From positions 1,364,001-1,428,000 of the forward strand of contig NZ_CP031733.1 in NCBI RefSeq assembly GCF_003086355.1: a DNA stretch of 64,000 nucleotides, read 5' to 3'. The notes beneath the pieces are model-generated. The model had not been told where the DNA came from. It saw only the letters and a list, made by a program, of their open reading frames with translations, and searched no databases. The position numbers and the translations under genes are program-made. The stretch is from Streptococcus chenjunshii (GTDB taxonomy: Bacteria; Bacillota; Bacilli; Lactobacillales; Streptococcaceae). The number at the start of each line of letters is the position of its first letter. Position 1 is the first letter of the stretch. Positions 702-63,455 of this stretch are shown piece after piece.

Positions 702-1526
702 TCAGCTTTCTCTATTGTGAATCCCAAAAGACAAACGGCTGATGGCCGTAACGATATCGCGATTAGCCTCTACATTGTGGACTCGCACCATGCGGCAGCC
801 TTTTTGTATGGCCCAGGCTGAAAGACCAGCTGTTGCTGCATCCCGTTCAAAAGGCTGTGTATGACCGCCTAAAAGATGATCAACCAGCCGCTTGCGGGAA
901 ACCCCAAAAAGTACCGGATAACCAAGCTGACAAACTTGATCCAAACCTCTCAACAGTTCAAGGTTCTGTTCAGCATTTTTGGCAAAGCCAAAACCGGGGT
1001 CAAGCCAGATATTTTCCCTGAGGACTCCGGCCGCTAAAGCAGCCTGTGCCCGATCAGCCAGAAAACGGCAAACATCTTGTATGATATTATCGTAACTTTC
1101 TTTTTCCTGATTATGCATTAGAATGATAGGAACATTATTCTGAGCAGCCAAAGGCAGCATCTGGCTGTCATAAAGACCGGCCCAGACATCGTTCAAAATA
1201 TCGGCACCGGCTTCCAGAGCAGCTCGGGCTGTCTCGCTTTTGTAGCTGTCAATGCTGACAAGACAGTCAAAATTTTCCTTGACAGCCCTGATAATTGGCA
1301 AAACCCGGCTCATCTCTTCTGCTGCTGTCACAAAATCAGCTCCCGGCCTTGTCGATTCACCGCCGATATCAATAACTGCAGCACCTGCATCCAGCATTTT
1401 CTGCACCTGCTCAAGTGCTGCAGGAATATCTAAATAATCTCCTCCATCAGAAAAAGAATCGGGCGTAACATTTAAAACACCCATAATACAGGCTTCACCT
1501 GCAATTTTATGACAACCGATTTTCAT
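702..1526 (-). CDS. folP: FolP, dihydropteroate synthase
   Basis: 274 residues. It condenses hydroxymethyl-dihydropterin pyrophosphate with p-aminobenzoate and is the sulfonamide target. The two Prosite-type signatures are visible: TPDSFSDGG at residues 21-29 and GGESTRPGA at 55-63, with a late GVSRKR substrate-binding segment. The frame extends to a TTG at 1550, but those extra codons come from the end of an interspersed repeat. The ATG at 1526 follows AAAGGG and is the better start. The repeat therefore ends only a few bases before the ribosome binding site. It sits between folE and folB in a folate cluster. Confidence 0.95.
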   Translation of the reverse strand: MKIGCHKIAGEACIMGVLNVTPDSFSDGGDYLDIPAALEQVQKMLDAGAAVIDIGGESTRPGADFVTAAEEMSRVLPIIRAVKENFDCLVSIDSYKSETARAALEAGADILNDVWAGLYDSQMLPLAAQNNVPIILMHNQEKESYDNIIQDVCRFLADRAQAALAAGVLRENIWLDPGFGFAKNAEQNLELLRGLDQVCQLGYPVLFGVSRKRLVDHLLGGHTQPFERDAATAGLSAWAIQKGCRMVRVHNVEANRDIVTAISRLSFGIHNRES

Positions 1527-1538
1527 CCTAACCCTTTC

Positions 1539-1780
1539 ATCAAGATACAAAGTCCGTTAAAAATCCGTATGAAAATAGGGAATGGCAAGTGATGCCTAAG
1601 CATCACGATGACAGCCATCTTTTTCACTAGGATTTTAGGGCGTGTTCAATTCCAACAAGATACAAAGCCCGTTAAAAATGCAATGGGAAAATAGGAAACT
1701 GACGAAGAAACTTTAGTTTCTAGGAAGTTTTATCTTTTTCCCGCAGCGTTTAGGGCGTGTTCAATTCCAACAAGATACAG
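1539..1780. repeat. Two tandem family A hairpin elements between folE and folP
   Basis: Two adjoining units, about 1539-1653 and 1654-1770, followed by a partial end at 1771-1780. Each begins near AAGATACAAAG(T/C)CCGTT and ends TTTAGGGCGTGTTCAATTCC. Unit 1 has arms aaaatccgtatgaaaa and tttttcactaggatttt with an inner hairpin GTGATGcctaaGCATCAC. Unit 2 carries a different apical hairpin, GAAACTTTAGTTTC. The element end lies directly before the folP ribosome binding site. Related units lie near 8.5, 25.1, 27.0, 50.3 and 63.1 kb. Confidence 0.85.
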
Positions 1781-7387: not shown

Positions 7388-7412
7388 GAACTGAACACGA
7401 CCTAAAATCCTA
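7388..7412. repeat. Remnant end of a family A element
   Basis: GAACTGAACACGACCTAAAA followed by TCCTAG is the reverse complement of the conserved right end of family A units. Only this end remains, just 3' of the deacetylase gene. Confidence 0.6.
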
Positions 7413-7415
7413 GTC

Positions 7416-7457
7416 AAAAAAATGTGCCACTCGCCTGAATGACACATTTTTATTTTT
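7416..7457. terminator. Bidirectional terminator between deacetylase and flavodoxin genes
   Basis: Arms AAAAATGTG and CACATTTTT flank a 16-base loop and are A/T-tailed on both sides. It serves the convergent genes ending at 7370 and 7457 and touches the flavodoxin stop codon. Confidence 0.8.
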
Positions 7458-8469: not shown

Positions 8470-8855
8470 TCTGACTTACTGCCAGCCGTAGATGTCTGAA
8501 GGCTTTGTCGTCTTTGCAGCCGACCGCACCCTTCTAGTCATCCTGGCAGAGGTGCGCCGACGAAATCATAGATTTCTGGCTTACCGTCTTTTCATACGGA
8601 TTTTTTAACGGCCTTTGTATCTTGGGAATTGAACACGGCCTAAACGCTGTGAGAAAAAGACAGCCCTCCCTAGAGTCTTTAGTGACTCAGCGGTCGGTCT
8701 CCTATTTTCTCTTTGCGTTCTTCACGGCCTTTGTATCTTATGAACTGAACACGGCCTAAACGCTGTGAGAAAAAGACAGCCCTCCCTAGAGTCTTTAGTG
8801 ACTCAGCGGTCGGTCTCCTATTTTCTCTTTGCGTTCTTCACGGCCTTTGTATCTT
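8470..8855. repeat. Three family A elements in the ltrA leader, the last two near-identical in tandem
   Basis: 8470-8625 is the long, degenerate type with a GAAATC-ata-GATTTC hairpin. 8626-8739 and 8740-8855 are almost identical copies of the gaacgc/gagaaaa type. Each starts with GAA(T/C)TGAACACGGCCTAAA and ends CACGGCCTTTGTATCTT. Nested arms AACGC..GAGAAAA..AGAC..GAGTC and their complements can form one long hairpin per unit. The array ends four bases before the GGAGG of the LtrA gene. Confidence 0.88.
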
Positions 8856-8873
8856 ATTGGAGGATGTTGAGTG

Positions 8874-10049
8874 ATGTCATCTGTTAAAGCGAAGCGTGTT
8901 TCGAATTATGAACTGTTTTTTGATTTGGCCTTTGTTACTGCAATCGGCCAGTTAAACAGTAATCTTTATCATGTTGAGCAGCTGACTGTGGCTTCAATGG
9001 TTAGTTTTGTTTTTACTAATATTATTTTATTAAGCATTTGGATAAATGAGGTCTACTTCTTCAACCAATATGGAGATGCCAGAAGAATTGATATTTTTAC
9101 GATTATTCCGCTTATGTATTTCATCGGCAACCTCTCTTTATATTTTGATTTTAATGTTGAGACCATTACAGCCAATCAGGTAAGTGTCTTTAATGCTTTA
9201 CTTTTTGGCATTTATATCGTCATCGCTTTACAGTACGGTCTTAAAGGAAGACTGCTTGGTTTTGATAAGGAAATTACAAGAAGCATTACGAATAATCTCA
9301 TTTACGCAATCAGTGTCCTTCCCTTTGTTTTTCAGCTTTTACCGGCTAATTCTTTTACGATGTCAATTGTCTATTTTATCCCTATTATACTTCCTCTCCT
9401 TAATCAGCCTCAAAACGGGAAGCAGCGCACCAATTTCCCTCACCTGCTTGAACGTTCCCAACTGCTGACTATCTTAACTTTCGGTGAAGCAGTCATTGCT
9501 ATTATCAACCATTACCCGATGATGGAAGCACCATTCACAGGTCCGTTCTTCTTTTTGGGACTGTCACTGTCCTTTATGTTTTATATGTCGCAGACTTTTT
9601 TAAATATTGAACGGCACCAAAAAGCTTCAGGAAGTCTCTTGCTGTATGCTCATATCATCATCGTTATAGCTGTTAACTTTTTTACAATCGGCATGGAATT
9701 TTTGGCCGATCCTCATCAGCAGAATCATGGGTTTATCTTTTTCCTGACAGCCATCATTCTCTATTATTTGGGAATCGGACTGACAAATTATTATAACAAA
9801 GCCCTGTATAAACTAAAAGCAGAGACTGTGCTGCAGTGGCTTATGTTACTTATTGTTTGCTGCGGTCTCATGATTTATTTCCGAGCGCAGCTGCCTTTAA
9901 TCGGAGCTCTACTGGTTGCCTTGAGCTATTGTATGGGACGGATCACTATGAGGGCCAGAAGAAAAGCACGTGAACAAAACAATATTCCTCACCCCGACGC
10001 CCGGCAGAATTTTCTTAATGAAATGCGCCGTCACCACAAAGGCAGATAA
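8874..10049 (+). CDS. LtrA-like low-temperature-requirement family membrane protein
   Basis: 391 residues and highly hydrophobic, with about ten membrane segments from residue 20 to 360 and a basic C-terminal tail. The opening VSNYELFFDLAFVTAIGQ is typical of the LtrA (PF06772) family, named from Listeria mutants unable to grow in the cold; its biochemical role is unknown. GGAGG at 8859-8863 serves either GTG 8871 (7-base spacing) or ATG 8874 (10-base); ATG is chosen but the GTG is possible. It lies behind a long leader made mostly of repeats. Confidence 0.82.
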   Translation: MSSVKAKRVSNYELFFDLAFVTAIGQLNSNLYHVEQLTVASMVSFVFTNIILLSIWINEVYFFNQYGDARRIDIFTIIPLMYFIGNLSLYFDFNVETITANQVSVFNALLFGIYIVIALQYGLKGRLLGFDKEITRSITNNLIYAISVLPFVFQLLPANSFTMSIVYFIPIILPLLNQPQNGKQRTNFPHLLERSQLLTILTFGEAVIAIINHYPMMEAPFTGPFFFLGLSLSFMFYMSQTFLNIERHQKASGSLLLYAHIIIVIAVNFFTIGMEFLADPHQQNHGFIFFLTAIILYYLGIGLTNYYNKALYKLKAETVLQWLMLLIVCCGLMIYFRAQLPLIGALLVALSYCMGRITMRARRKAREQNNIPHPDARQNFLNEMRRHHKGR

Positions 10050-22399: not shown

Positions 22400-22530
22400 T
22401 TTTTGGGCTAGGTACAAAAAATCGCACCTAGACCTAGACACGAAAGTACAAATACGTTATTTATTAATGACGTTTTGTGCCTCGGCAGGAATATTACGAG
22501 CACTGCTCCCCTGCTGTCTTAGGTCAGTTT
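22400..22530 (-). ncRNA. L10 leader (autoregulatory 5' UTR of rplJL)
   Basis: On the minus strand: AAGACAGCAGGGG, then CCTGCCGAGGCA, and a late hairpin CTAGGTGCG-T-rich loop-GTACCTAG just before the rplJ ribosome binding site. These are landmarks of the Gram-positive ribosomal L10 leader, where free L10(L12)4 binding causes premature termination. Boundaries are approximate. Confidence 0.8.
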
Positions 22531-22547
22531 TATTCAAAACCTTTACC

Positions 22548-25048: not shown

Positions 25049-25290
25049 AACAAGATACAAAGGCCGTTAAGAACGCAAAGAGAAAATAGGGGCCTGACCG
25101 AAGAGTCATTAAAGACTCAAGGGAAGGCTGTCTTTTTCTCACAGCGTTTAGGCCGTGTTCAGTTCATCAATATACAAAGGCCGTATAAAAATCCGTATGA
25201 AAATGACGGTAAGTCCGAAATCTCTGATTTCGCAGACGCACCTCTGCCAAGATGACTAGAAAGCTGCGGGCAGCTGCAAAGAGACAAACT
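25049..25290. repeat. Two family A elements between clpL and the glycosylase gene
   Basis: 25049-25165 is the gaacgc/gagaaaa type with the GAGTCATTAAAGACTC apical hairpin. 25166-25290 starts tatacaaaggccgt and carries the gaaatc-tct-gatttc hairpin of the long type but lacks the right end. Orientation is opposite, relative to the next gene, to that at folP, ltrA, mmuM, the ABC gene and rcrP. Confidence 0.8.
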
Positions 25291-25364
25291 GCTTTCTCAG
25301 CCTTTGATTAATGGTGAAAATTGTGATATGGTAACGGTAATAAAATAAGTAAGCAGGACATTTC

Positions 25365-26982: not shown

Positions 26983-27425
26983 ACCAAGATACAAAGGCCG
27001 TTTAAAAATCCGTATGAAAATAGGGAAGGACGAGCGATGCTCCACATCGCGACGGACTTCATCTTTTTCACTAGGATTTTAGGCCGCGTTCAATTCCACC
27101 AAGATACAAAGGCCGTTAAAAGCTCACAGCAAAAATAGGAACCTGACCGCCGAGTCACTAAAGACTCAAGGAAGGGTTGTCTTTTTTGCAAAGAGCTTAG
27201 GCCGTGTTCAATTCACCAAGATACAAAGGCCGTTTAAAAATCCGTATGAAAATAGGGAAGGACGAGCGATGCTCCACATCGCGACGGACTTCATCTTTTT
27301 CACTAGGATTTTAGGCCGCGTTCAATTCCACCAAGATACAAAGGCCGTTAAAAGCTCACAGCAAAAATAGGAACCTGGCCGCCGAGTCACTAAAGACTCA
27401 TGGAAGGGCTCTACTCACAGAGCAG
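26983..27425. repeat. Array of four family A units (two-unit block duplicated) between mmuP and mmuM
   Basis: Units at 26983-27097, 27098-27214, 27215-27329 and about 27330-27425 (truncated). Types alternate: bccgtatgaaaa/tttttcactagga with GCGATG-CATCGC apical stem, then aagctcacagcaaaaa with GAGTC-GACTC. Block 26983-27214 is repeated at 27215-27425 nearly without change, so this is a recent tandem duplication. The rest of the gap to 27492 shows no gene. Confidence 0.88.
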
Positions 27426-27492
27426 CCACACTCGTAAGTCTCTAACCTTCCTATACGGTACCTCTTTTTCTCAAACTCAGGCTATCTTGGTT

Positions 27493-41047: not shown

Positions 41048-44000
41048 TCAGCGCTTTTTGCGCGGTTTTAGCAGACCTGAAGCTACCGATAGCAAGATAA
41101 GACCTACTACAGCCGTATAATTGCTTTCTTCTCCTGTTTGTGGAAGCTGACCGGAATTTTCTGCAAGAGATGATATACCGTAGCTTGGATCTTCTGGTAT
41201 AACAGTTGGAGCCATTGGTTCTTGATCTGCTCGCTGAGAAGCGGACGGAGTATCAACTCCGCTTTCTGTAATAAGCGGCAGCACTGTCGGGCTGTAAACT
41301 GCTCGAACAGTCACACCATTGGCGTCTGTTGCTTCTACCACTATCGGATCCGGTGTGCCAACAAAGTCCGGATTCGGTGCAAAGGTAACTTCACCGGTGC
41401 TTGGATCAAGCGTATAGGTTCCCACTTGAATACCGGCTTTCATAGCTGGCAGAGTTGTCTCGACTGTGGCTTGACCGGTTGCTGGATCCACCAACTGGTA
41501 ACCTGTAATCGGCACACTTGGATCACCGGCTGTGAAGACGGGAGTTCCTGTTTGAGTAGCCCCCTGAAGACCGGTTGAAGTCACGTCTTCCCCTGTCGGT
41601 GTTACTGGAGTAACGGTCGGCGTATAGGTCGCACTGGCTGGGGTGCCGTTGGTATCCTGACGCACCACCGTCACTGCTGGGGCTTCGCCTACGAAGCTCG
41701 GTTCCGGTACGAAGGTCACTGTGCCATCTGGAGACACAGTATAGGTGCCGATGCCAGAAACCACTCTTTCTGTTGTCCCATCCTCAAAGGCAGCGGGAAC
41801 ACTGTCATCTATCGGCACACTCGGGTCGCCAGCTGTGAAGACTGGGGTACCAGTTTGAGTAGCCCCCTGCAGGCCGGTTGAAGTCACATCCTCACCGGTT
41901 GGCGTAACTGGCGTGACGGTCGGCATGTAGGTCGCCGTTGCTGTTGTGCCGTTGGTATCTGTTGCTTCTACCACTATCGGATCCGGTGTGCCAACAAAGT
42001 CCGGATTTGGCACAAAGGTAACTTCACCGGTGCTTGGATCAAGCGTGTAGGTTCCCACTTGAACACCGTCTTTCATAGCTGGCAGAGTTGTCTCGACTGT
42101 GGCTTGACCGGTTGCTGGATCCACCAACTGGTAACCTGTAATCGGCACACTTGGATCACCGGCTGTGAAGACGGGAGTTCCTGTTTGAGTAGCCCCCTGA
42201 AGACCGGTTGAAGTGGCGTCCTCACCGGTTGGCGTAACTGGCGTGACGGTCGGCGTATAGGTCGCACTGGCTGGGGTGCCGTTGGTATCCTGACGCACCA
42301 CCGTCACTGCTGGGGCTTCGCCTACGAAGCTCGGTTCCGGTACGAAGGTCACTGTGCCATCTGGAGACACAGTATAGGTGCCGACGCCAGAAACCACTTT
42401 TTCTGTTGTCCCATCCTCAAAGGCAGCAGGCACACTGTCATCTATCGGCACACTTGGGTCGCCAGCTGTGAAGACAGGAGTTCCTGTTTGAGTGGCCCCC
42501 TGAAGACCAGTTGAAGTGGCGTCCTCACCGGTTGGCGTAACTGGTGTGACTGTTGGCGTGTAGATCGCACTGGCTGGGGTGCCGTTGGTATCCTGACGCA
42601 CCACCGTCACTGATGGGGCTTCGCCTACGAAGCTCGGTTCTGGTACGAAGGTCACTGTGCCATCTGGAGACACGGTATAGGTGCCGACACCAGAAATCAC
42701 TTTTTCTATTGTCCCATCCTCAAAGGCAGCAGGCACACTGTCATCTATCGGCACCCTTGGATCACCGGCCGTGAAGACAGGAGTTCCCGTTTGAGTAGCA
42801 CCCTGCAGACCGGTTGAAGTCACGTCTTCCCCTGTCGGTGTTACTGGAGTAACGGTCGGCGTATAGGTCGCACTGGCTGGGGTGCCGTTGGTATCCTGAC
42901 GCACCACCGTCACTGCTGGGGCTTCGCCTACGAAGCTCGGTTCCGGTACGAAGGTCACTGTGCCATCTGGAGACACAGTATAGGTGCCGATGCCAGAAAC
43001 CACTCTTTCTGTTGTCCCATCTTCAAAGGTAGCGGGAACACTGTCATCTATCGGCACACTTGGGTCGCCGGCCGTGAAGACAGGAGTTCCCGTTTGAGTG
43101 GCACCCTGCAGACCGGTTGAAGTGGCATCTTCTCCTGTCGGTGTTACTGGCGTGACAGTCGGCGTATAGGTCGCACTGGCTGGGGTGCCGTTGGTATCCT
43201 GACGCACCACCGTCACTGATGGGGCTTCGCCTACGAAGCTCGGTTCCGGTACGAAGGTCACTGTGCCATCTGGAGACACAGTATAGGTGCCGACGCCAGA
43301 AACCACTCTTTCTGTTGTCCCATCCTCAAAGGCAGCAGGCACACTGTCATCTATCGGCACACTCAGGTCGCCAGCTGTGAAGACAGGAGTTCCCGTTTGA
43401 GTAGCCCCCTGCAGACCGGTTGAAGTCACGTCTTCCCCTGTTGGGGTAACCGGCGTAACGGTCGGCGTATAGGTCGCACTGGCTGGGGTGCCGTTAGTAT
43501 CTTGACGCACCACCGTCACTGATGGAGCTTCGCCTACGAAGCTCGGTTCCGGTACGAAGGTCACTGTGCCATCTGGAGACACGGTATAGGTGCCGACACC
43601 AGAAACCACTTTTTCTGTTGTCCCATCCTCAAAGACGGCAGGCACACTGTCATCTATCGGCACACTTGGGTCGCCGGCCGTGAAGACTGGAGTTCCCGTT
43701 TGAGTGGCACCCTGCAGGCCGGTTGAAGTCACATCTTCCCCTGTCGGTGTTACTGGCGTGACAGTTGGGGTATAAGTGGCACGAGCTGGGGTACCATTGG
43801 CGTCTGTTGCTTCTACCACTATCGGATCCGGTGTGCCAACAAAGTCCGGATTCGGTACAAAGGTAACTTCACCGGTGCTTGGATCAAGCGTGTAGGTTCC
43901 CACTTGAAAACCGTTCTTCATAGCTGGCAGAGTCGTCTCAACTGTGGCTTGACCGGTTGTCGGATCCACCAATTGATAACCTGTAATCGGCACACTTGGG

Positions 44001-46891
44001 TCGCCGGCCGTGAAGACTGGAGTTCCTGTTTGAGTGGCCCCCTGAAGACCGGTTGAAGTGGCGTCCTCACCGGTTGGCGTAACTGGTGTGACTGTTGGCG
44101 TGTAGATCGCACTGGCTGGGGTGCCGTTGGTATCCTGACGCACCACCGTCACTGCTGGAGCTTCGCCTACGAAGCTCGGTTCCGGTACGAAGGTCACTGT
44201 GCCATCTGGAGATAGGGTGTAAGTTCCAACACCAGAAACCACTTTTTCTGTTGTCCCATCCTCAAAGGCAGCAGGCACACTGTCATCTATCGGCACACTT
44301 GGGTCGCCAGCTGTGAAGACAGGAGTTCCCGTTTGAGTAGCCCCCTGCAGACCGGTTGAAGTCACATCCTCACCGGTTGGCGTAACCGGTGTGACTGTTG
44401 GCGTGTAAGCTGCCGTAACTGTTTTACCGTTCACATCTTTTGCAAGAACCTGTGCTGGATCCGGTGTGCCAACAAAATCTTTATTAGGAACAAATGCTAC
44501 TGTTCCAGTCTCTGGGTTAAAAGTATAGGTCCCAACTGCTACACCATCTTTCATTGCAAAGATTGTATTGCTGTCAGTTGGTTGGCCTGTTGTTGGATCA
44601 ATCAGCTGTTTGCTGACAAAGTCAATATCTTCGTCACCAGTATCAAAAGTGAGCGTTCCTGTTTGTACAGCCCCCTGAATATCTGTTGAAGCAGCATCAG
44701 TTGCTGTTGGTGTATTATCCGGTTCAATAATTGGAATTTGAAAATCTTCCACTTCGCCATCACGCGCCAAGCCTGTTGGATTAGCAACATCGCTGGCAGT
44801 AGAGGCAATACGCACTCGTACATTTAACTGGGTGAGATTATCTGGAATCAAGGATGGATCCGCATCAAATGTTAAAGTTGTCATGCCTGTAGATATAACA
44901 GCAGCACTAACCTTTTCATTCTCATCAAAAGTACCGTTATTATTAAAATCTACCCAGGCAGAAATATGTGCTGTATCTGCCCCGTTAAGGTTAGCCAACA
45001 CGCTCAGCGAATAGCTGTTGGATCCGCGTTTATATTGGGCGTAAGTCCCGCCATTTGTTAACTGAGCTTCACCTTCGTCATAACTGCTGGTATCATAGTA
45101 AGTCGCTGCTCCATCATCACCTGTCCAAGATGTTGTAAATACTGTCTGGTTATCCGGATCTCCTGCTACCAAGCCCAAATAAGGGGAGCCATTGCCTGTT
45201 CTCGAAGCCAGACCGGCAGCATTGGTCAAATCTTTAGTTTCCCCTAATTTAAAATCTGTATCAGCTGCTGTAGCCTGTAAAAGATGCCCTACCAGACCGT
45301 AAGATGCACTGGCATCACCATAGTCAATCGGAACAACAAAGCCTAAAACGAAAGACTGCTCACCGTTTAGAATAAAGTAATGCGACAGCTCAGTGACACC
45401 GTAAGTTGATAAAATCGGTACTGCATGCGGTTCAAATTGGTCTGTATCGTAAAGATAATATCCAGGGTTATTAGGATCGGGTTTGAACCCCCCGTCCGAT
45501 CTGACAATACCCGTGTTGATATTACTAATAATTTGTGTGTTCTGCCCACCGTTAGAACTCGAATTATAAAGAGCCTCGGAGTAAGTGTAGCCATGATCGC
45601 TCGGGTAAATGGTATTTAAGATTCTCTCAGCAAAATAATCATCTGCCGATTCTGAAACATCTGGAGCGACAACTGTCTGGTTTGGTGTATTACCGGTGGG
45701 AAGACTTATACCGGTAGAAGAGATATCAATCAGCTTAAAAACTTCGCCATTGGTCATGGTAATGGTGTTTTCTGGCCGGTCCAAAGACTCACCATCTGTA
45801 ATAAAAGCCTGAACTGGGACAGTCTCACCGTTAAAAGTAGCATTGAGACTGAAAGTGACCCCGGCATTAGCACGCCTTGATATGATACTTGTTTTAGCCG
45901 TTGACCCTAAATCATAACCACTATTGTTCAAAAGGTTACGATATTTGGTTGTCCCGTCAGTCCTCCCGTAAATAACAGGTGTCAGTGGAGCATCTATTTC
46001 TGTTTTATTTGTCGGGCTTACAAAAGCTTTATTAACAGCATTAGGATCGTAATTGGTCGTAGCGGGATCAATCCCGGCAGCGATGAGGCGGTTATAGTAT
46101 TCTTCAGTTGAATTGAAAGGCTGCAGGTTAGTCACCGTGATAGTAATCTCATAGCCCGGGGCAGGAGAAACCGTTAAAGCCGTTCCAATCTGCAGATTGC
46201 CATTGGCATCCAAATTCGTTGCACCTGACCAATCCGGGAAAAAGAGAACATCTCTCAGTTTAGCAGCAGAATCCTGATAAGCTGCCGCGACTTCTGAGGA
46301 ACGGGTCGCATAAATTCCGTTGACAGGCGTAAATTCAGATGCTACAGCCGCTGCTTGCTGAAAATTAGCAGTCAGCATGGCGGAGTCAGCAGCTGAAAAG
46401 GCCGATAAGTCAGAAATAGTCAGCACTTCAGAACTGCCGTCAGCAGCTGAAGGGTCTAAGTTCTCCTGTGTATCGCTGTTGTCATTCAGAGGCACTGTCG
46501 CATCATTTTCAGTTACCGGAAGCTCCTCCGCTGTGTCGCTGTCCGCAGCTGCTGCATCTGAAACGATTTCGCTGTATGTCTGAGGTGCCCCTTCTTCCGT
46601 TGTTGCAGAATTTTCTTGACCGCTGGTTAAAACGCTTTCTTGAACTAAGTCAGAAAAACCGCTGCTGCTATCTGCAGATGTATCCGAAACAGGGGAAACT
46701 GTGTCAGAGGCAGCAACCGCACTTTCTGACTGGATAGCATCCTGAACATCATCTGCATGAGCTGTTGCAGCAGGATTCGCTAAAAACAAAAACATCCCTA
46801 AAAGAACACTAGCTGCACCAAAATGCGTCTTCCGGATAGAAAAACGCTGTCTGGTCTGACCGTTAACTTTGTTTGATCCCTTTAACTTCAT
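41048..46891 (-). CDS. CshA-like fibrillar surface adhesin with LPXTG anchor
   Basis: 1947 residues. A YSIRK-type signal (RFSIRKTHFGAASVLLGMFLF, residues 16-36) is cleaved probably at AHA-DD near 46. An acidic Ser/Asp/Ala-rich disordered region follows (about 47-170), then a non-repetitive globular region (about 200-730) resembling CshA NR2. Next comes an array of 11 CshA-type repeats (one degenerate, ten near-identical). It ends with LPQTGEE (1916), a hydrophobic stretch and RKKR. Sortase would link it to peptidoglycan. CshA proteins bind fibronectin and other bacteria and form surface fibrils; the ligand here is unknown. AGAGG precedes the ATG. Confidence 0.92.
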   Translation of the reverse strand: MKLKGSNKVNGQTRQRFSIRKTHFGAASVLLGMFLFLANPAATAHADDVQDAIQSESAVAASDTVSPVSDTSADSSSGFSDLVQESVLTSGQENSATTEEGAPQTYSEIVSDAAAADSDTAEELPVTENDATVPLNDNSDTQENLDPSAADGSSEVLTISDLSAFSAADSAMLTANFQQAAAVASEFTPVNGIYATRSSEVAAAYQDSAAKLRDVLFFPDWSGATNLDANGNLQIGTALTVSPAPGYEITITVTNLQPFNSTEEYYNRLIAAGIDPATTNYDPNAVNKAFVSPTNKTEIDAPLTPVIYGRTDGTTKYRNLLNNSGYDLGSTAKTSIISRRANAGVTFSLNATFNGETVPVQAFITDGESLDRPENTITMTNGEVFKLIDISSTGISLPTGNTPNQTVVAPDVSESADDYFAERILNTIYPSDHGYTYSEALYNSSSNGGQNTQIISNINTGIVRSDGGFKPDPNNPGYYLYDTDQFEPHAVPILSTYGVTELSHYFILNGEQSFVLGFVVPIDYGDASASYGLVGHLLQATAADTDFKLGETKDLTNAAGLASRTGNGSPYLGLVAGDPDNQTVFTTSWTGDDGAATYYDTSSYDEGEAQLTNGGTYAQYKRGSNSYSLSVLANLNGADTAHISAWVDFNNNGTFDENEKVSAAVISTGMTTLTFDADPSLIPDNLTQLNVRVRIASTASDVANPTGLARDGEVEDFQIPIIEPDNTPTATDAASTDIQGAVQTGTLTFDTGDEDIDFVSKQLIDPTTGQPTDSNTIFAMKDGVAVGTYTFNPETGTVAFVPNKDFVGTPDPAQVLAKDVNGKTVTAAYTPTVTPVTPTGEDVTSTGLQGATQTGTPVFTAGDPSVPIDDSVPAAFEDGTTEKVVSGVGTYTLSPDGTVTFVPEPSFVGEAPAVTVVRQDTNGTPASAIYTPTVTPVTPTGEDATSTGLQGATQTGTPVFTAGDPSVPITGYQLVDPTTGQATVETTLPAMKNGFQVGTYTLDPSTGEVTFVPNPDFVGTPDPIVVEATDANGTPARATYTPTVTPVTPTGEDVTSTGLQGATQTGTPVFTAGDPSVPIDDSVPAVFEDGTTEKVVSGVGTYTVSPDGTVTFVPEPSFVGEAPSVTVVRQDTNGTPASATYTPTVTPVTPTGEDVTSTGLQGATQTGTPVFTAGDLSVPIDDSVPAAFEDGTTERVVSGVGTYTVSPDGTVTFVPEPSFVGEAPSVTVVRQDTNGTPASATYTPTVTPVTPTGEDATSTGLQGATQTGTPVFTAGDPSVPIDDSVPATFEDGTTERVVSGIGTYTVSPDGTVTFVPEPSFVGEAPAVTVVRQDTNGTPASATYTPTVTPVTPTGEDVTSTGLQGATQTGTPVFTAGDPRVPIDDSVPAAFEDGTIEKVISGVGTYTVSPDGTVTFVPEPSFVGEAPSVTVVRQDTNGTPASAIYTPTVTPVTPTGEDATSTGLQGATQTGTPVFTAGDPSVPIDDSVPAAFEDGTTEKVVSGVGTYTVSPDGTVTFVPEPSFVGEAPAVTVVRQDTNGTPASATYTPTVTPVTPTGEDATSTGLQGATQTGTPVFTAGDPSVPITGYQLVDPATGQATVETTLPAMKDGVQVGTYTLDPSTGEVTFVPNPDFVGTPDPIVVEATDTNGTTATATYMPTVTPVTPTGEDVTSTGLQGATQTGTPVFTAGDPSVPIDDSVPAAFEDGTTERVVSGIGTYTVSPDGTVTFVPEPSFVGEAPAVTVVRQDTNGTPASATYTPTVTPVTPTGEDVTSTGLQGATQTGTPVFTAGDPSVPITGYQLVDPATGQATVETTLPAMKAGIQVGTYTLDPSTGEVTFAPNPDFVGTPDPIVVEATDANGVTVRAVYSPTVLPLITESGVDTPSASQRADQEPMAPTVIPEDPSYGISSLAENSGQLPQTGEESNYTAVVGLILLSVASGLLKPRKKR
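41270..44715 (-). repeat. CshA repeat array, two interleaved repeat types
   Basis: One degenerate first repeat, then ten repeats each opening GED(V/A)TSTGLQGATQTG. Seven are 101 residues (303 bp; PIDDSVPA..FEDGTTEKVV type) and three are 110 residues (330 bp; PITGYQLVDPTTGQ type). From N to C the order is S-Y-S-S-S-S-S-Y-S-Y. DNA identity between copies is very high. Confidence 0.9.
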
Positions 46892-50291: not shown

Positions 50292-50425
50292 ATTAAGATA
50301 CAAAGGCCGTCAAGAACGCAAAGAGAAAATAGGAGGCTGGATGACGAGCCGACGAGGCTCTAAGACAGTCTATCTTTTTCCCGCAGCGTTTAGGCCGTGT
50401 TCAGTTCATTAAGATACAAAGGCCG
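50292..50425. repeat. Family A element and adjoining end between UroD-like and binding-protein genes
   Basis: 50292-50405 is a full gaacgc/gagaaaa-type unit with an apical GAGC(C)-GGCTC hairpin different from other copies; 50406-50425 is a lone left end. The ggcctttgtatctt end lies 9 bases from AGAGGAG of the ABC gene. Confidence 0.82.
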
Positions 50426-50449
50426 TGAGACCTGAAGCGCAGTATCCTT

Positions 50450-59539: not shown

Positions 59540-61291
59540 TTAAGAAGCTTGGAACTGTGAGTTATAGAGGTCTGCATAGAAACCGCCGGCTGACATCAGC
59601 TGGTCATGGTTGCCTTGTTCAATAATATTGCCGTCCTTCATAACTAATATCAGATCAGCATTACGGATAGTAGACAGCCTGTGAGCAATAACGAATGATG
59701 TCCGTCCCTCCATCAGTTTATCCATGGCTTGCTGAATCAGTTCCTCCGTTCTGGTATCAACTGACGAGGTCGCTTCGTCCAGAATAAGAAGAGGAGCATC
59801 TTTCAGTAGTGCACGGGCTATAGTCATCAGCTGCTTCTGACCTACCGACAGACTGACCGAATCATCGAGCATGGTATCATAGCCTTGCGGCAGAGTCATA
59901 ATAAAATGGTGTACACCGACAGATTTAGCAGCTGCAACAACTTGATCATCTGTAATATTTTCCTGATTATAGATTAAATTCTCTTTAACCGTGCCTTCAA
60001 AAAGCCAAGTATCCTGCAGGACCATCGCAAAAGCATCATGAACTTCTTCACGTTTCATCTGATTGATATCAATTCCGTCAATAGTAATACTGCCGCGATC
60101 AATGTCGTAAAATTTCATCAGCAGATTGACAATCGTTGTTTTACCGGCACCGGTTGGGCCGACAATAGCAATTTTCTGTCCAGCCTGAGCAGCCGCGGAA
60201 AAATCATGAATAATCACCTTGTCCTTCGAATAGCCAAAGAAAACATCCTTGAAGGCAACATCACCTTTAACCGCTGTAAGCTGTCTTTCTTTAGCCCCTT
60301 CATCACTCATTTCTTTTTCATCCAGAAATTCAAAAACTCGTCCCATTGCAGCACGGGCTGACTGTAATTGTGTGACTGCCTGTGCAATCTGTGATAAAGG
60401 CTGCGAGAAAATACGGACATAGGTCATAAAGGCGACAATTGTCCCCATTGTGATATCGCCATTGATAGCCAGAGTAGCACCGACAATACAAACCATGACA
60501 TAGCCAAAATTTCCGATAAACTGCATCATAGGCATCATAATTCCTGAAAAGAATTGTGACTTCCACATACTTGTATATAAATTTTGATTAAGCTGATTAA
60601 ACGTTTCTTTGGTCTGATCAACAGCACTGTAGCTTGTCACAACATTGTGGCCGGTATAAATTTCTTCAACATAGCCATTAACCTTAGCCATATTATCCTG
60701 CTGCCGGGTAAAGAAGGGCTGTGTTTTACTCATAATAAAAATAACAAGAATAAAGCCGATAAAAACAGAACCGATAGCGGTTGCTGCCAGAACACCGTTA
60801 GTTCTTATCATCATAAAAATTGAACCGAATAAGAGTACAACAGCAGCTACAAGCGAGACTAAGCTTTGATTGAGTGACTGCGTCATCAAGTCGACATCGT
60901 TGGTCACACGAGAAAGAGTGTCTCCCTGAGGGTGGCTGTCAAAATACCGCAAAGGCAAGACATTAATCTTATCAGCGATGGCATTGCGCATCTTTTGTGA
61001 AAATTTTTGGATAATAGTTGTGACAATAAAGCTGGCTGTATAAGAAATAACCGCACCGGCTCCGTACATAAGTGCCAAAGTCATGGCAATCCTGCCAATT
61101 TTATCTAAATCAAGCTGTCCGGCCAATCCTTCAGTGATAGCATCTGTAATCTCTTTTAGCTTATCAGGACCAATAACAGTGATGCTGCTTGAAATAACCG
61201 TAAACACAACAGCGAGCAAAAAAGCTGCGCGGTAACTTTTAATATAAGGAGCCATTTGGCTGAATAAAGACACTTTTCTTTTATTTCCCAT
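59540..61291 (-). CDS. rcrQ: RcrQ-like ABC exporter subunit
   Basis: 583 residues, six membrane helices plus NBD. Walker A GPTGAGKTT near 373, a degenerate signature LSVGQKQ near 479 and intact Walker B LILDEATSSVD. It pairs with RcrP as a heterodimer. In S. mutans RcrPQ ties competence, stress tolerance and (p)ppGpp; the transported molecule is unknown. AAGGAGGAG precedes the ATG, overlapping rcrP by 11 bases. Confidence 0.9.
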   Translation of the reverse strand: MGNKRKVSLFSQMAPYIKSYRAAFLLAVVFTVISSSITVIGPDKLKEITDAITEGLAGQLDLDKIGRIAMTLALMYGAGAVISYTASFIVTTIIQKFSQKMRNAIADKINVLPLRYFDSHPQGDTLSRVTNDVDLMTQSLNQSLVSLVAAVVLLFGSIFMMIRTNGVLAATAIGSVFIGFILVIFIMSKTQPFFTRQQDNMAKVNGYVEEIYTGHNVVTSYSAVDQTKETFNQLNQNLYTSMWKSQFFSGIMMPMMQFIGNFGYVMVCIVGATLAINGDITMGTIVAFMTYVRIFSQPLSQIAQAVTQLQSARAAMGRVFEFLDEKEMSDEGAKERQLTAVKGDVAFKDVFFGYSKDKVIIHDFSAAAQAGQKIAIVGPTGAGKTTIVNLLMKFYDIDRGSITIDGIDINQMKREEVHDAFAMVLQDTWLFEGTVKENLIYNQENITDDQVVAAAKSVGVHHFIMTLPQGYDTMLDDSVSLSVGQKQLMTIARALLKDAPLLILDEATSSVDTRTEELIQQAMDKLMEGRTSFVIAHRLSTIRNADLILVMKDGNIIEQGNHDQLMSAGGFYADLYNSQFQAS

Positions 61292-63083
61292 TTTCTAACT
61301 CCTCCTTAGATAGTTGTGAATAAGCAATTTCCTGATAGACTTTATTATCAGCCAGCAGTTCTTTGTGGGTTCCCTGACCGACCACTTTGCCTTCATCTAA
61401 AACCAAAATTTGATCAGCATCCATAATTGTTGAAATACGCTGAGCAACGATCAGCTTAGTCATCCGATCGGTCTGCTTAGCTAGGTTTTCACGCAGAATA
61501 CGGTCTGTTTTATAATCTAAGGCTGAGAAAGAGTCATCAAAAATCAAAATTTCTGGTTTGCGCGCTAAAGCACGGGCGATAGCCAATCGCTGTTTTTGAC
61601 CGCCCGAAAAATTGGTACCCCCCTGAGCAACTTCTGCATCCAGTCCCTGCTCTTTATTAGCGACAAAATCTTTGGCTTGCGCCAAGTCCAAAGCCTCCCA
61701 AATCTTATCATCATCAAGCGGCGTTTGACTGCTTACCCCAAATTCTATATTGGAACGAATTGTTCCGCTGAAAAGAACTGCTTTTTGCGGGATATAACCA
61801 ATTTTACTGTTTAAATCCTCATGACTGTAATCACGAATATCCACACCATCAACTAAAATACTGCCTTCTGTCACATCATAAAAACGCGGGAGCAAGTTAA
61901 CGAGAGTTGATTTCCCAGATCCTGTCGAGCCAATGAAAGCTACCGTCTGACCTGATTCAGCCCTAAAACTGACATGTTCGATGACGGCCTCAGAATCTTC
62001 AGCATAGCGGAAAGAAACATCTCTAAAGACAACGGTGCCGGTCTGATTGCCCGTTTTATCTCCTTTTTCTTTAAAGGAAACAGTTGAATCCAGTGCCAAT
62101 ACTTCATTAATACGGCCGGCAGAAACAAGTGCCCGCGGCAAAATAATGAAGATAGCCACCATCATCATAAAGCCCATGACAACTTGCATAGCATAGGATG
62201 AAAAGACCACCATATCACTGAAAACAGCCACACGATCTTTAACATCAGCCGCAGCCTGGCTCATATCGGCTGCCGACACGCTGATACGATCAATTAAATG
62301 TGCACCAATCCAATAAATGGCCAAAGTCAAACCGCTTGAAACCAGTGTCATCACAGGATTCATAAGTGCCATAAGCCGATGGACAAAGAGATTGAGCTTG
62401 GTCAATTTATCATTTTCTTTGGTAAATTTTGCATCCTGATAGTCTTCAGCATTATAGGCACGTACCACCCGGATTCCCGAAAGAATTTCTCTGGTCGTGC
62501 TGTTTAAAGCATCAGTTAGAGACTGAATCTTACTCATGCGCGGAAAAGCTACAAACAGCATAACTGACAGTAAAATCAGCACAATAAACACCGCTCCGCC
62601 GACAGACCAGCTCCACTCTGAACTTTTGCCCCAAATTTTCGTCAAAGCCCAGACAGCCATAATCGGACCGCGGGTTACAACCTGCATTCCCATTGTGATA
62701 AGAATCTGCAGCTGAGTTAAATCATTGGTTGTCCGTGTCAGCAGGCTGGGGATAGAAAATTTCTTAATTTCAGCATCCGAATAATCCATCACCTGATTAA
62801 AAATGTCAGCCCGCAAACGGGTAGTGAAACTGGCTGCTGTCCGTGCTGCCAAAAAGCCAACAACTACTGCACTCATAAAACTGGAAAACGACAAGATAAG
62901 CATCTTGGAGCCTGGCCCCATGATATCAGCAGCAGTCGTTCCTTCAGTCTGCAGCAAAGTGGTAATTTCCGACATATAAGACGGCGTTTTTAAATCCATC
63001 CAAACAGCCAGACAAATGAATACTGTGCTAAGGAAGATCATCCCCCATTCCTTAGCATTCAAGCGCTTAAAAATTTTTAACAT
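61281..63083 (-). CDS. rcrP: RcrP-like ABC exporter subunit with degenerate catalytic site
   Basis: 600 residues. Walker A GSTGSGKS near 384 and intact signature FSGGQKQR near 494. Walker B reads ILIFDDSFSALD near 515, with Asp in place of the catalytic Glu, as in heterodimeric exporters such as BmrCD and TM287/288. The degenerate Walker B pairs with the degenerate signature of RcrQ. Separated from the upstream MarR gene by a 435-base repeat array. GGAG near the ATG. Confidence 0.9.
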   Translation of the reverse strand: MLKIFKRLNAKEWGMIFLSTVFICLAVWMDLKTPSYMSEITTLLQTEGTTAADIMGPGSKMLILSFSSFMSAVVVGFLAARTAASFTTRLRADIFNQVMDYSDAEIKKFSIPSLLTRTTNDLTQLQILITMGMQVVTRGPIMAVWALTKIWGKSSEWSWSVGGAVFIVLILLSVMLFVAFPRMSKIQSLTDALNSTTREILSGIRVVRAYNAEDYQDAKFTKENDKLTKLNLFVHRLMALMNPVMTLVSSGLTLAIYWIGAHLIDRISVSAADMSQAAADVKDRVAVFSDMVVFSSYAMQVVMGFMMMVAIFIILPRALVSAGRINEVLALDSTVSFKEKGDKTGNQTGTVVFRDVSFRYAEDSEAVIEHVSFRAESGQTVAFIGSTGSGKSTLVNLLPRFYDVTEGSILVDGVDIRDYSHEDLNSKIGYIPQKAVLFSGTIRSNIEFGVSSQTPLDDDKIWEALDLAQAKDFVANKEQGLDAEVAQGGTNFSGGQKQRLAIARALARKPEILIFDDSFSALDYKTDRILRENLAKQTDRMTKLIVAQRISTIMDADQILVLDEGKVVGQGTHKELLADNKVYQEIAYSQLSKEELENGK

Positions 63084-63102: not shown

Positions 63103-63455
63103 ACAAGATACAAAGGCCGTTAAGAACGCAAAGAGAAAATAGGCGTCCAACCGCTGAGTCACTAAAGACTCAAGGGAGGGCGGTCTTTTTCTCACAGCGT
63201 TTAGGCCGTGTTCAATTCACAAGATACAAAGGCCGTATAAAAATCCGTAGGAAAATGGCGGTAAGTCCGAAATCTGTGATTTCGCAGACGCACCCCTGCC
63301 AAGATGACTAGAAGGGTGCGGTCGTCTGTCAAGACGGCAAAGCCTTCAGTCAGCTACGGCTAGGGTCATTTAACAAGATGCTTGCATCACGATGACAGCC
63401 ATCTTTTTCACTAGGATTTTAGGCCGTGTTCGATTCACAAGATACAAAGGCCGCT
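63103..63455. repeat. Family A array between rcrR-like and rcrP-like genes
   Basis: 63103-63218 is the gaacgc/gagaaaa type; 63219-63436 is the complete long type, with left and right ends, an inner GAAATC-tgt-GATTTC hairpin and a second GATGctTGCATC-like hairpin; 63437-63455 is a lone left end. The ggcctttgtatctt end lies about 4 bases from the rcrP Shine-Dalgarno region. Confidence 0.87.

Follow-up and report, generated by a model that had tools for sequence, protein, structure and literature searches.

Repeat units in the S. chenjunshii window

The window, i.e., the whole stretch of 64,000 nucleotides of the Streptococcus chenjunshii genome (hereafter G000) that was analyzed, contains 14 units of a repeat at six loci (1.5, 8.5, 25.1, 27.0, 50.3 and 63.1 kb). 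Eleven of these are bounded by the two end sequences S (AAGATACAAAGGCCGT) and E (AGGCCGTGTTCARTT), and the other three, with S at 8623, 25169 and 27333, are without E, which agrees with the initial annotation of about 14 units sharing end sequences. The S end matches 19 times in the window with up to three mismatches (0.58 expected) and the E end 12 times (0.02 expected); three S matches with three mismatches (27668, 52745 and 61984) look like chance occurrences or remnants, and S remnants also follow the last unit of the 1.5-, 50.3- and 63.1-kb arrays. The features are as follows:

1542..1651, plus strand: unit with type-B stems AAAATCC:GGATTTT and outer stem GTCC:GGGC
1657..1766, plus strand: unit with apical stem GAAAC:GTTTC and outer stem GCCC:GGGC, followed by an S remnant (AAGATAC) at 1772
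7388..7425, minus strand: E-end fragment, a decayed type-B-like copy (limits approximate)
8475..8623, minus strand: unit 3 of the 8.5-kb array, S end and D core module (E not found, far limit approximate)
8627..8739, minus strand: unit 2 of the 8.5-kb array, near-identical to unit 1
8743..8855, minus strand: unit 1 of the 8.5-kb array, type A (AACGC:GCGTT)
25052..25164, plus strand: type-A unit, with a terminator-like stretch and no SD on its S side
25169..25300, plus strand: unit with D core module (E not found, end approximate)
26986..27095, plus strand: type-B unit, S end 3 nt from the GGAGG of a leftward gene
27101..27213, plus strand: unit with an AAGCTC:GAGCTT stem
27218..27327, plus strand: type-B unit, a repeat of the unit at 26986
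27333..27470, plus strand: truncated unit with the third insert type of about 54 nt (end approximate)
50295..50406, plus strand: unit with a GAGCC:GGCTC apex, S end 7 nt from the AGGAG of a leftward gene
50411..50426, plus strand: lone S end closing the 50.3-kb array
63105..63217, plus strand: type-A unit, upstream of the gene at 61281..63083 (minus strand)
63221..63435, plus strand: unit with the D module as core, both ends present
63439..63454, plus strand: lone S end closing the 63.1-kb array

The span 8470-8855 is thus made of three units, all on the minus strand, two of them near-identical and of type A and the third truncated and with a different core. The S end of unit 1 lies 3 nt before the GGAGG of an ORF on the plus strand (8871..10049, GTG start), and the array, which was located by eye between a TATAAT-like box and the Shine-Dalgarno (SD) sequence, likely belongs to the 5' UTR. 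At 1.5 kb, the S end of the first unit is found at the 5' end of a leftward gene (ORF 702..1550, minus strand), whose real start is probably the ATG near 1526. Elsewhere in the window, a 303-bp tandem repeat of 7.4 copies (42141-44404) is contained in an ORF of 1947 aa (41048..46891, minus strand), perhaps a repetitive surface protein, and a ribosomal protein L10 leader (RF00557) occupies 22407-22541 on the minus strand.

A covarying fold with exchangeable modules

Units have a length of approximately 107-116 nt and form a hairpin closed at its very ends. From the outside inwards, the S strand displays a terminal helix, the outer stem S0 (GGCC:GGCC in the genome of the window), and stems S1 and S2, the latter opposing an A run and a T run; further inwards lie an internal loop (TAGG / (A/G)TC), stem S3, a GAC / AGG loop and the apical stem S4, with S3 and S4 assigned by eye and in a register that differs between core types. 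For the unit at 8743-8855, the fold on its two strands surpasses that of dinucleotide shuffles by 3.55 and 3.62 s.d., and the stems named in the initial annotation (AACGC/GCGTT, AAAATCC/GGATTTT and GAGTC/GACTC, in addition to the single-copy GAGCC and GAAAC apices) are all present.

For the covariation analysis, 107 S-E pairs were thinned to 41 (99-118 nt, S with at most two mismatches, less than 95.5% identical), from which three were taken out (a deletion, a chimera with broken outer pairing and a divergent S. merionis unit) and to which one rpsO-linked copy was added, giving 39 units. In their outer helices 95.8% of 777 cells pair, 12 of the 20 pairs change on both sides, and the covariation score reaches 0.331, against 0.113 in shuffled alignments and at most 0.094 when the alignment is slid. 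These values corroborate the earlier proposal that different sequences sharing one nested fold reflect selection for structure. The 39-unit alignment placed the terminal helix in a neighbouring register; the register supported by a count over 71 distinct copies from four genomes pairs positions 1, 2, 3, 4, 6, 7 and 8 with -1, -2, -5, -6, -7, -8 and -9, leaving base 5 and bases -3 and -4 as bulges. Among these copies, position 2 pairs with -2 (the last but one) in 61, against 40.5 after shuffling (0 of 500 shuffles as high), by A-T in 42, T-A in 10 and G-C in 7; the pairs 4:-6, 6:-7 and 7:-8 are formed in 69, 68 and 67 copies, respectively, and 8:-9 in 49 (31.9 shuffled). Exchanged pair types were observed at each of the terminal pairs 2, 4, 6, 7 and 8, positions 1 and 3 being near-invariant and uninformative. 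The covariation of the terminal pairs therefore extends the fold to the whole element, with inverted ends, which is a BOX trait. The ends described initially as fixed are so mainly in G000: in other species the outer ends covary, with S0 variants GCCC:GGGC, GGGC:GCCC, GTCC:GGAC, GAGC:GCTC and GTGC:GCAC.

The core is exchangeable as well. In some units it is replaced by a D module of about 106 nt (GGCGGTAAGTC...CTACGGCT), which forms tandem arrays of its own (loci L056 at 2659, L046 at 2982 and L047 at 17271, and the window at 63221-63435), and similar modules are found in S. henryi and S. merionis. A third insert of about 54 nt (ACTCACAGAGCAGCC...GCGTCT) enters at the same point of the 3' side of the units (window 27333-27470, L043 at 7547 and L048 at 1502). 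The BOX-like modular design noticed at the outset is supported by the two core types, one itself tandemly repeated, and the third insert.

Furthermore, folding is stronger on the S strand than on its complement in 11 of 12 units of the sense class, 23 of 27 of the antisense class, 24 of 30 others and 40 of 42 units of G000, as judged by raw energies with no shuffled control. It thus seems to be the element's own strand whose structure is favoured, even when the opposite strand is the one in the mRNA, and this speaks for mobility over a function in the mRNA; antisense copies show the narrowest margin (2.5 against 4.1-4.6 kcal/mol), so that a degree of selection in place is compatible with the data. 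A strand test based on G.U versus A.C flanked mismatches gave counts too small to be used.

Distribution in the genus Streptococcus and beyond

G000 contains 477 S ends within two mismatches. The exact S 16-mer is present in 46 of 284 Streptococcus genomes, with 283 copies in G000, 128 in G138, 11 in S. merionis (G085) and 4 in S. henryi (G050). A covariance model, as called for by the initial annotation, was built and searched, and it recovered the element in 277 of the 284 genomes (E <= 0.001), reaching beyond the mutans group; since scoring in this survey was limited to about 13 candidates per genome, the counts per genome are lower bounds. A lineage-specific repeat is ruled out by this genus-wide presence. 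Deeper scoring (E <= 0.01) yielded 14 copies in S. pneumoniae SMRU824, 15 in G116, 24 in G080 and 26 in G246; together with the 477 S ends of G000, these numbers are those of a short, non-coding sequence in many dispersed copies, as is typical of MITEs.

When 395 genomes were drawn from the whole order, 82 gave a match at E <= 1e-4; 68 of these belong to Streptococcus, and three Streptococcus genomes are listed in the draw without a match. The 14 matches among approximately 324 genomes of other genera display E-values from 1e-4 to 5e-7, with a best value of 1.1e-12 (G574), and outnumber the prediction from nominal E-values; these weak matches (G574, G293, G306, G320, G341, G348, G402 and seven more) represent either distant relatives or chance. 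No Rfam covariance model reached its gathering score on the element, whether in the window or across 20 loci taken from four other genomes. Viral contigs were also considered and set aside: the exact 16-mer occurs in nine stretches of them, but E is absent within the 140 nt inspected in each. At one locus, behind rpsO (L070, 1371-1872), an array of short direct repeats, whose translation repeats FYRSQFWRLQK, is possibly of CRISPR type.

Placement at gene edges

The position and orientation of the units relative to SD sequences and to start and stop codons, absent from the earlier reading, is the most informative property of the element. Placement was determined for four genomes from 76 of 81 matches (excluded were two that overlapping loci had yielded twice and three that were partial or very weak), with 78 of 79 located copies lying in loci that were obtained, and these correspond to 66 arrays. 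In 32 arrays an ATG directed away from the S end lies no more than 45 nt from it, and in 21 a stop codon does; the S end is near a start or a stop in 44 of the 66, against 507 of 3000 random points. Conversely, the E end is near a gene boundary in 13 of 66 arrays, about the chance level, and faces a start in none.

In 27 of the 66 arrays only 2-6 nt separate the ATG from S, too little to accommodate an SD; in every one of them an SD-like motif is found on the E side at a distance of up to 45 nt, compared with 35% of random 45-mers. This motif is a GAAAGG abutting E in 12 arrays, lies at 2 and 7 nt in two, and at 13-29 nt in 13. In these 27 arrays, the SD-like motif and the AUG are split by a structured insert with paired ends, as in the T4 type of split site. 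A further 12 arrays have their S end 1-5 nt after a stop codon. The neighbouring genes, which we take from the starts of their proteins to be dnaJ, carA, carB, parC, prmA, dapB, pnp, rpsO, rpsJ/rplC and rpsN/rpsH, are joined by presumed rRNA loci: four copies in G080 (L252, L253, L254 and L273) are directly behind what we assume to be the 16S rRNA 3' end (GGATCACCTCCTTTCTAAGGAAAAAC), and those at L267-L270 in G246 stand just before the presumed 5' end of 23S rRNA.

The arrangement is different in G000, where arrays lie upstream of the SD, unlike the SD-element-AUG order seen elsewhere. Across the window and 20 further stretches (463 kb), 34 of 57 S clusters (a total that includes chance matches) have within 15 nt an SD that is followed by the start of an ORF directed away from them, compared with 35 of 4000 random points. 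After eight clusters were dropped (chance, cut or continued arrays), 33 of 47 distinct flanks showed a GGAG-like core starting 3-7 nt from the S end, and six had none within 22 nt.

Turnover at fixed sites

The site before dnaJ is filled in 24 of 30 genomes and the site behind rpsJ in 11 of 30. Six genomes (S. henryi, G132, G180, G276, G138 and G000) have the dnaJ site empty, with an SD-ATG gap of 7-8 nt as judged by eye; among the 24 copies, the SD complement CCTTTC was found by eye within 30 nt behind E in 21, at 0 nt in eight of them. Small GAACA..TGTTC hairpins or fused S-E ends were also noticed by eye between SD and element, often in the longer spacers (L180, L182, L187 and L195 upstream of dnaJ, L161 and L170 upstream of carB), and these are possibly internal-deletion derivatives that would remain stalks.

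The identity of dnaJ and that of its element are decoupled in several genome pairs: G116/G092 share 94% in the gene versus 59% in the element, G256/G246 96% versus 63%, and G092/G224 81% versus 99%. For other pairs, element identity tracks gene identity (G224/G147, 98% and 99%; G200/G116, 89% and 97%). By these sequence comparisons, units seem to be exchanged at a fixed site. Recombination between species that involves the entire leader could account for the swaps, but in G092 and G224 the flanks behind E differ despite elements that are 99% alike, which speaks for exchange of the unit and not of the leader. The six sites of the window correspond in G138 to three sites filled with other units and three that are not, one of the latter keeping a lone S remnant.

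In G000, 41 of 49 E ends have an S-like heptamer within the next 14 nt. Units that insert into S ends, or recombine through them, would produce such a pattern, the lone S ends being what stays behind; part of the turnover can be explained more simply by homologous recombination between similar units. In the arrays of four ordinary genomes, identity between adjacent units is only in the range of 64-73% (10 of 10 pairs), so these arrays did not arise by simple recent duplication, and tandem duplication as the sole source of arrays was discarded, no adjacent pair of the ten being alike; for G000 it holds in part, with 7 of 15 adjacent pairs at least 96% identical. Target-site duplications were not found, the available empty sites being comparisons between genomes 72-90% identical over aligned pieces, with one genome per species.

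A probable mobile hairpin and its alternatives

With the integration of these findings (recurring unit boundaries, a covarying fold, a single orientation, tight placement at gene boundaries, and unrelated units at one site), we consider it probable that the units constitute a small non-coding mobile element, MITE- or BOX-like, spread throughout the genus and present in hundreds of copies in S. chenjunshii. Single units would move, or be swapped, by means of a recombinase or transposase acting in trans and recognizing the ends and the hairpin. The folded hairpin would behave as a stalk, which between SD and AUG would keep both close enough for initiation, and copies would be tolerated owing to this fold.

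With base pairing that runs to the very ends of the hairpin, folding could bring SD and AUG next to each other; in the 12 cases with an abutting motif, the distance left between the two would be 2-6 nt and one helix width. Several observations count against the stalk: 13 of the 27 SD-like motifs are 13-29 nt from E, a distance at which the stalk alone gives no normal spacing, the arrays of G000 lie upstream of the SD, and behind stop codons or in rRNA spacers there is no SD for a copy to span. Terminal pairing is about equal in SD-element-AUG copies (92.6%) and elsewhere (90.3%), so that better pairing of the former, as a sign of selection in place, was not found. As for the mobilizer, no mobilizing protein was found, and no autonomous relative was seen among the copies inspected, with S-E pairs sought up to 420 nt. 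Two candidates were rejected: Y1 (IS200-like) transposases occur in 9 of the 11 genomes with the element and 2 of the 7 without it, but their genes look like ordinary IS200-type copies, scattered in position, and reverse transcriptases occur in 5 of 11 and 2 of 7, respectively; neither tracks the element specifically.

The more detailed proposal, in which the element is a genus-wide stalk placed site-specifically between SD and start, or against the stop, with initiation across an insert of about 110 nt and cassette-like exchange at lone-S docking sites by a hairpin-recognizing recombinase, is put forward tentatively, as we hold it to be rather less probable than its opposite. If true, several housekeeping genes of Streptococcus, those of S. 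pneumoniae included, would initiate translation across an exchangeable hairpin inside the ribosome-binding site, providing a test of how far apart SD and AUG may stand in cellular mRNAs; moreover, a mobile element could hide in the tightest non-coding space that a bacterial gene offers, and a mobilizer new to science would be acting across the whole genus.

Alternatively, the element might be a cis-regulatory RNA (a leader, a thermometer or a protein-binding element) kept at the same genes by selection. The recurrence of the dnaJ and rpsJ sites, the conserved internal loops TAGG, GAC and ATC, the 5'UTR-like position in G000, and the report of a Streptococcus motif, 'ScRE', which the part of the source available to us marks as probably cis-regulatory (Weinberg et al. 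2010, PMC2864571), are all in keeping with this reading. It is nonetheless unlikely, given that the neighbouring genes have no recognized common function and are met in both orientations, that copies are also located right after stop codons and in rRNA spacers, that two genomes harbor 128 and 283 exact S ends, that unrelated units occupy one site, and that the better fold belongs to the strand that is not the mRNA.

Still less probable is that the element is a divergent offshoot of the BOX repeats known from pneumococcus and S. suis. Both have a modular build with exchangeable inner modules, and a shared stretch (CAAAG.G.AAA.TAGGAAACTA) attains a local score of 34, against a shuffled maximum of 30, with 11% of units exceeding the shuffled 99th percentile; however, the mean score is 21.2 versus 20.2 in shuffled controls, the ends are different, the D module is not BOX-similar, and a single S. 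pneumoniae genome carries both repeats (53 matches to the BOX core with at most two mismatches and 14 copies of the element). In addition, BOX is described, in the part of the source available to us, as enriched between convergent genes (PMC3049150). The view that these are terminators or RNase III processing sites of operons, repeated by chance, is very improbable despite the T run (CTTTTT) on the S strand and the copies inside operons and 16S-23S spacers, as the T run sits inside a stem, termination within the ribosomal-protein operons that carry copies would presumably be harmful, and such a role needs neither conserved ends nor unit exchange.

Comparison with known systems

Hairpin-based non-coding mobile DNA is known from REP sequences with their RAYT/IS200-like Y1 transposases and from the attC cassettes of integrons, which form arrays of units with conserved ends. 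Unlike REP/RAYT, the element described here showed no specific link to Y1, and unlike integron attC sites it was seen with no cassette genes. The mobile hairpins of mitochondria (GC clusters and double-hairpin elements) are palindromes tolerated in or beside genes by folding away; they are organellar, and the element is likened to them by description, not by sequence.

Split ribosome-binding sites have been reported for genes 25 and 38 of phage T4, where RNA structure between SD and AUG shortens the spacing and helps translation, according to the part of the report available (PMC3014915). The T4 sites are gene-specific and span 22-27 nt, whereas the element is a repeat of about 110 nt at many genes, with a putative stalk effect. 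ScRE is a structured Streptococcus motif without an Rfam accession in the accessible part of its description (Weinberg et al. 2010, PMC2864571); both it and the element are structured motifs of this genus, and the element, likened to it by description only, may be the motif listed in 2010. Among the literature matches listed, mostly without subscription papers, no account of the family, of the SD-AUG placement or of fixed-site exchange was recognized; the nearest descriptions, as far as these sources were accessible, are those of BOX/RUP/SPRITE, ScRE and the Streptococcus pnuC leader motif (PMC8632094).

BOX of S. pneumoniae and the BOX-type boxA-F and RepSU1 of S. suis are short, non-coding, modular and folded repeats, as described in the accessible part of the source (PMC3049150). 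Like BOX as described there, the element displays inverted ends, variable inner modules and a strong fold, and is interspersed and non-coding. The 81 units compared with eight BOX copies from one S. pneumoniae genome do not have the boxA-boxB(n)-boxC sequence with its BOXA1R core. The statement of the initial annotation that the repeat resembles BOX in design and not in sequence holds on the whole, with the exception of one BOX-like stretch of 30 nt slightly above shuffled controls. Unlike BOX, so far as the available part of its description goes, the element has ends, modules and stems of other sequence, at most one weakly similar stretch, a genus-wide presence, and an S end fixed at gene starts or stops. 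BOX is the nearest described family, though by sequence not the same one.
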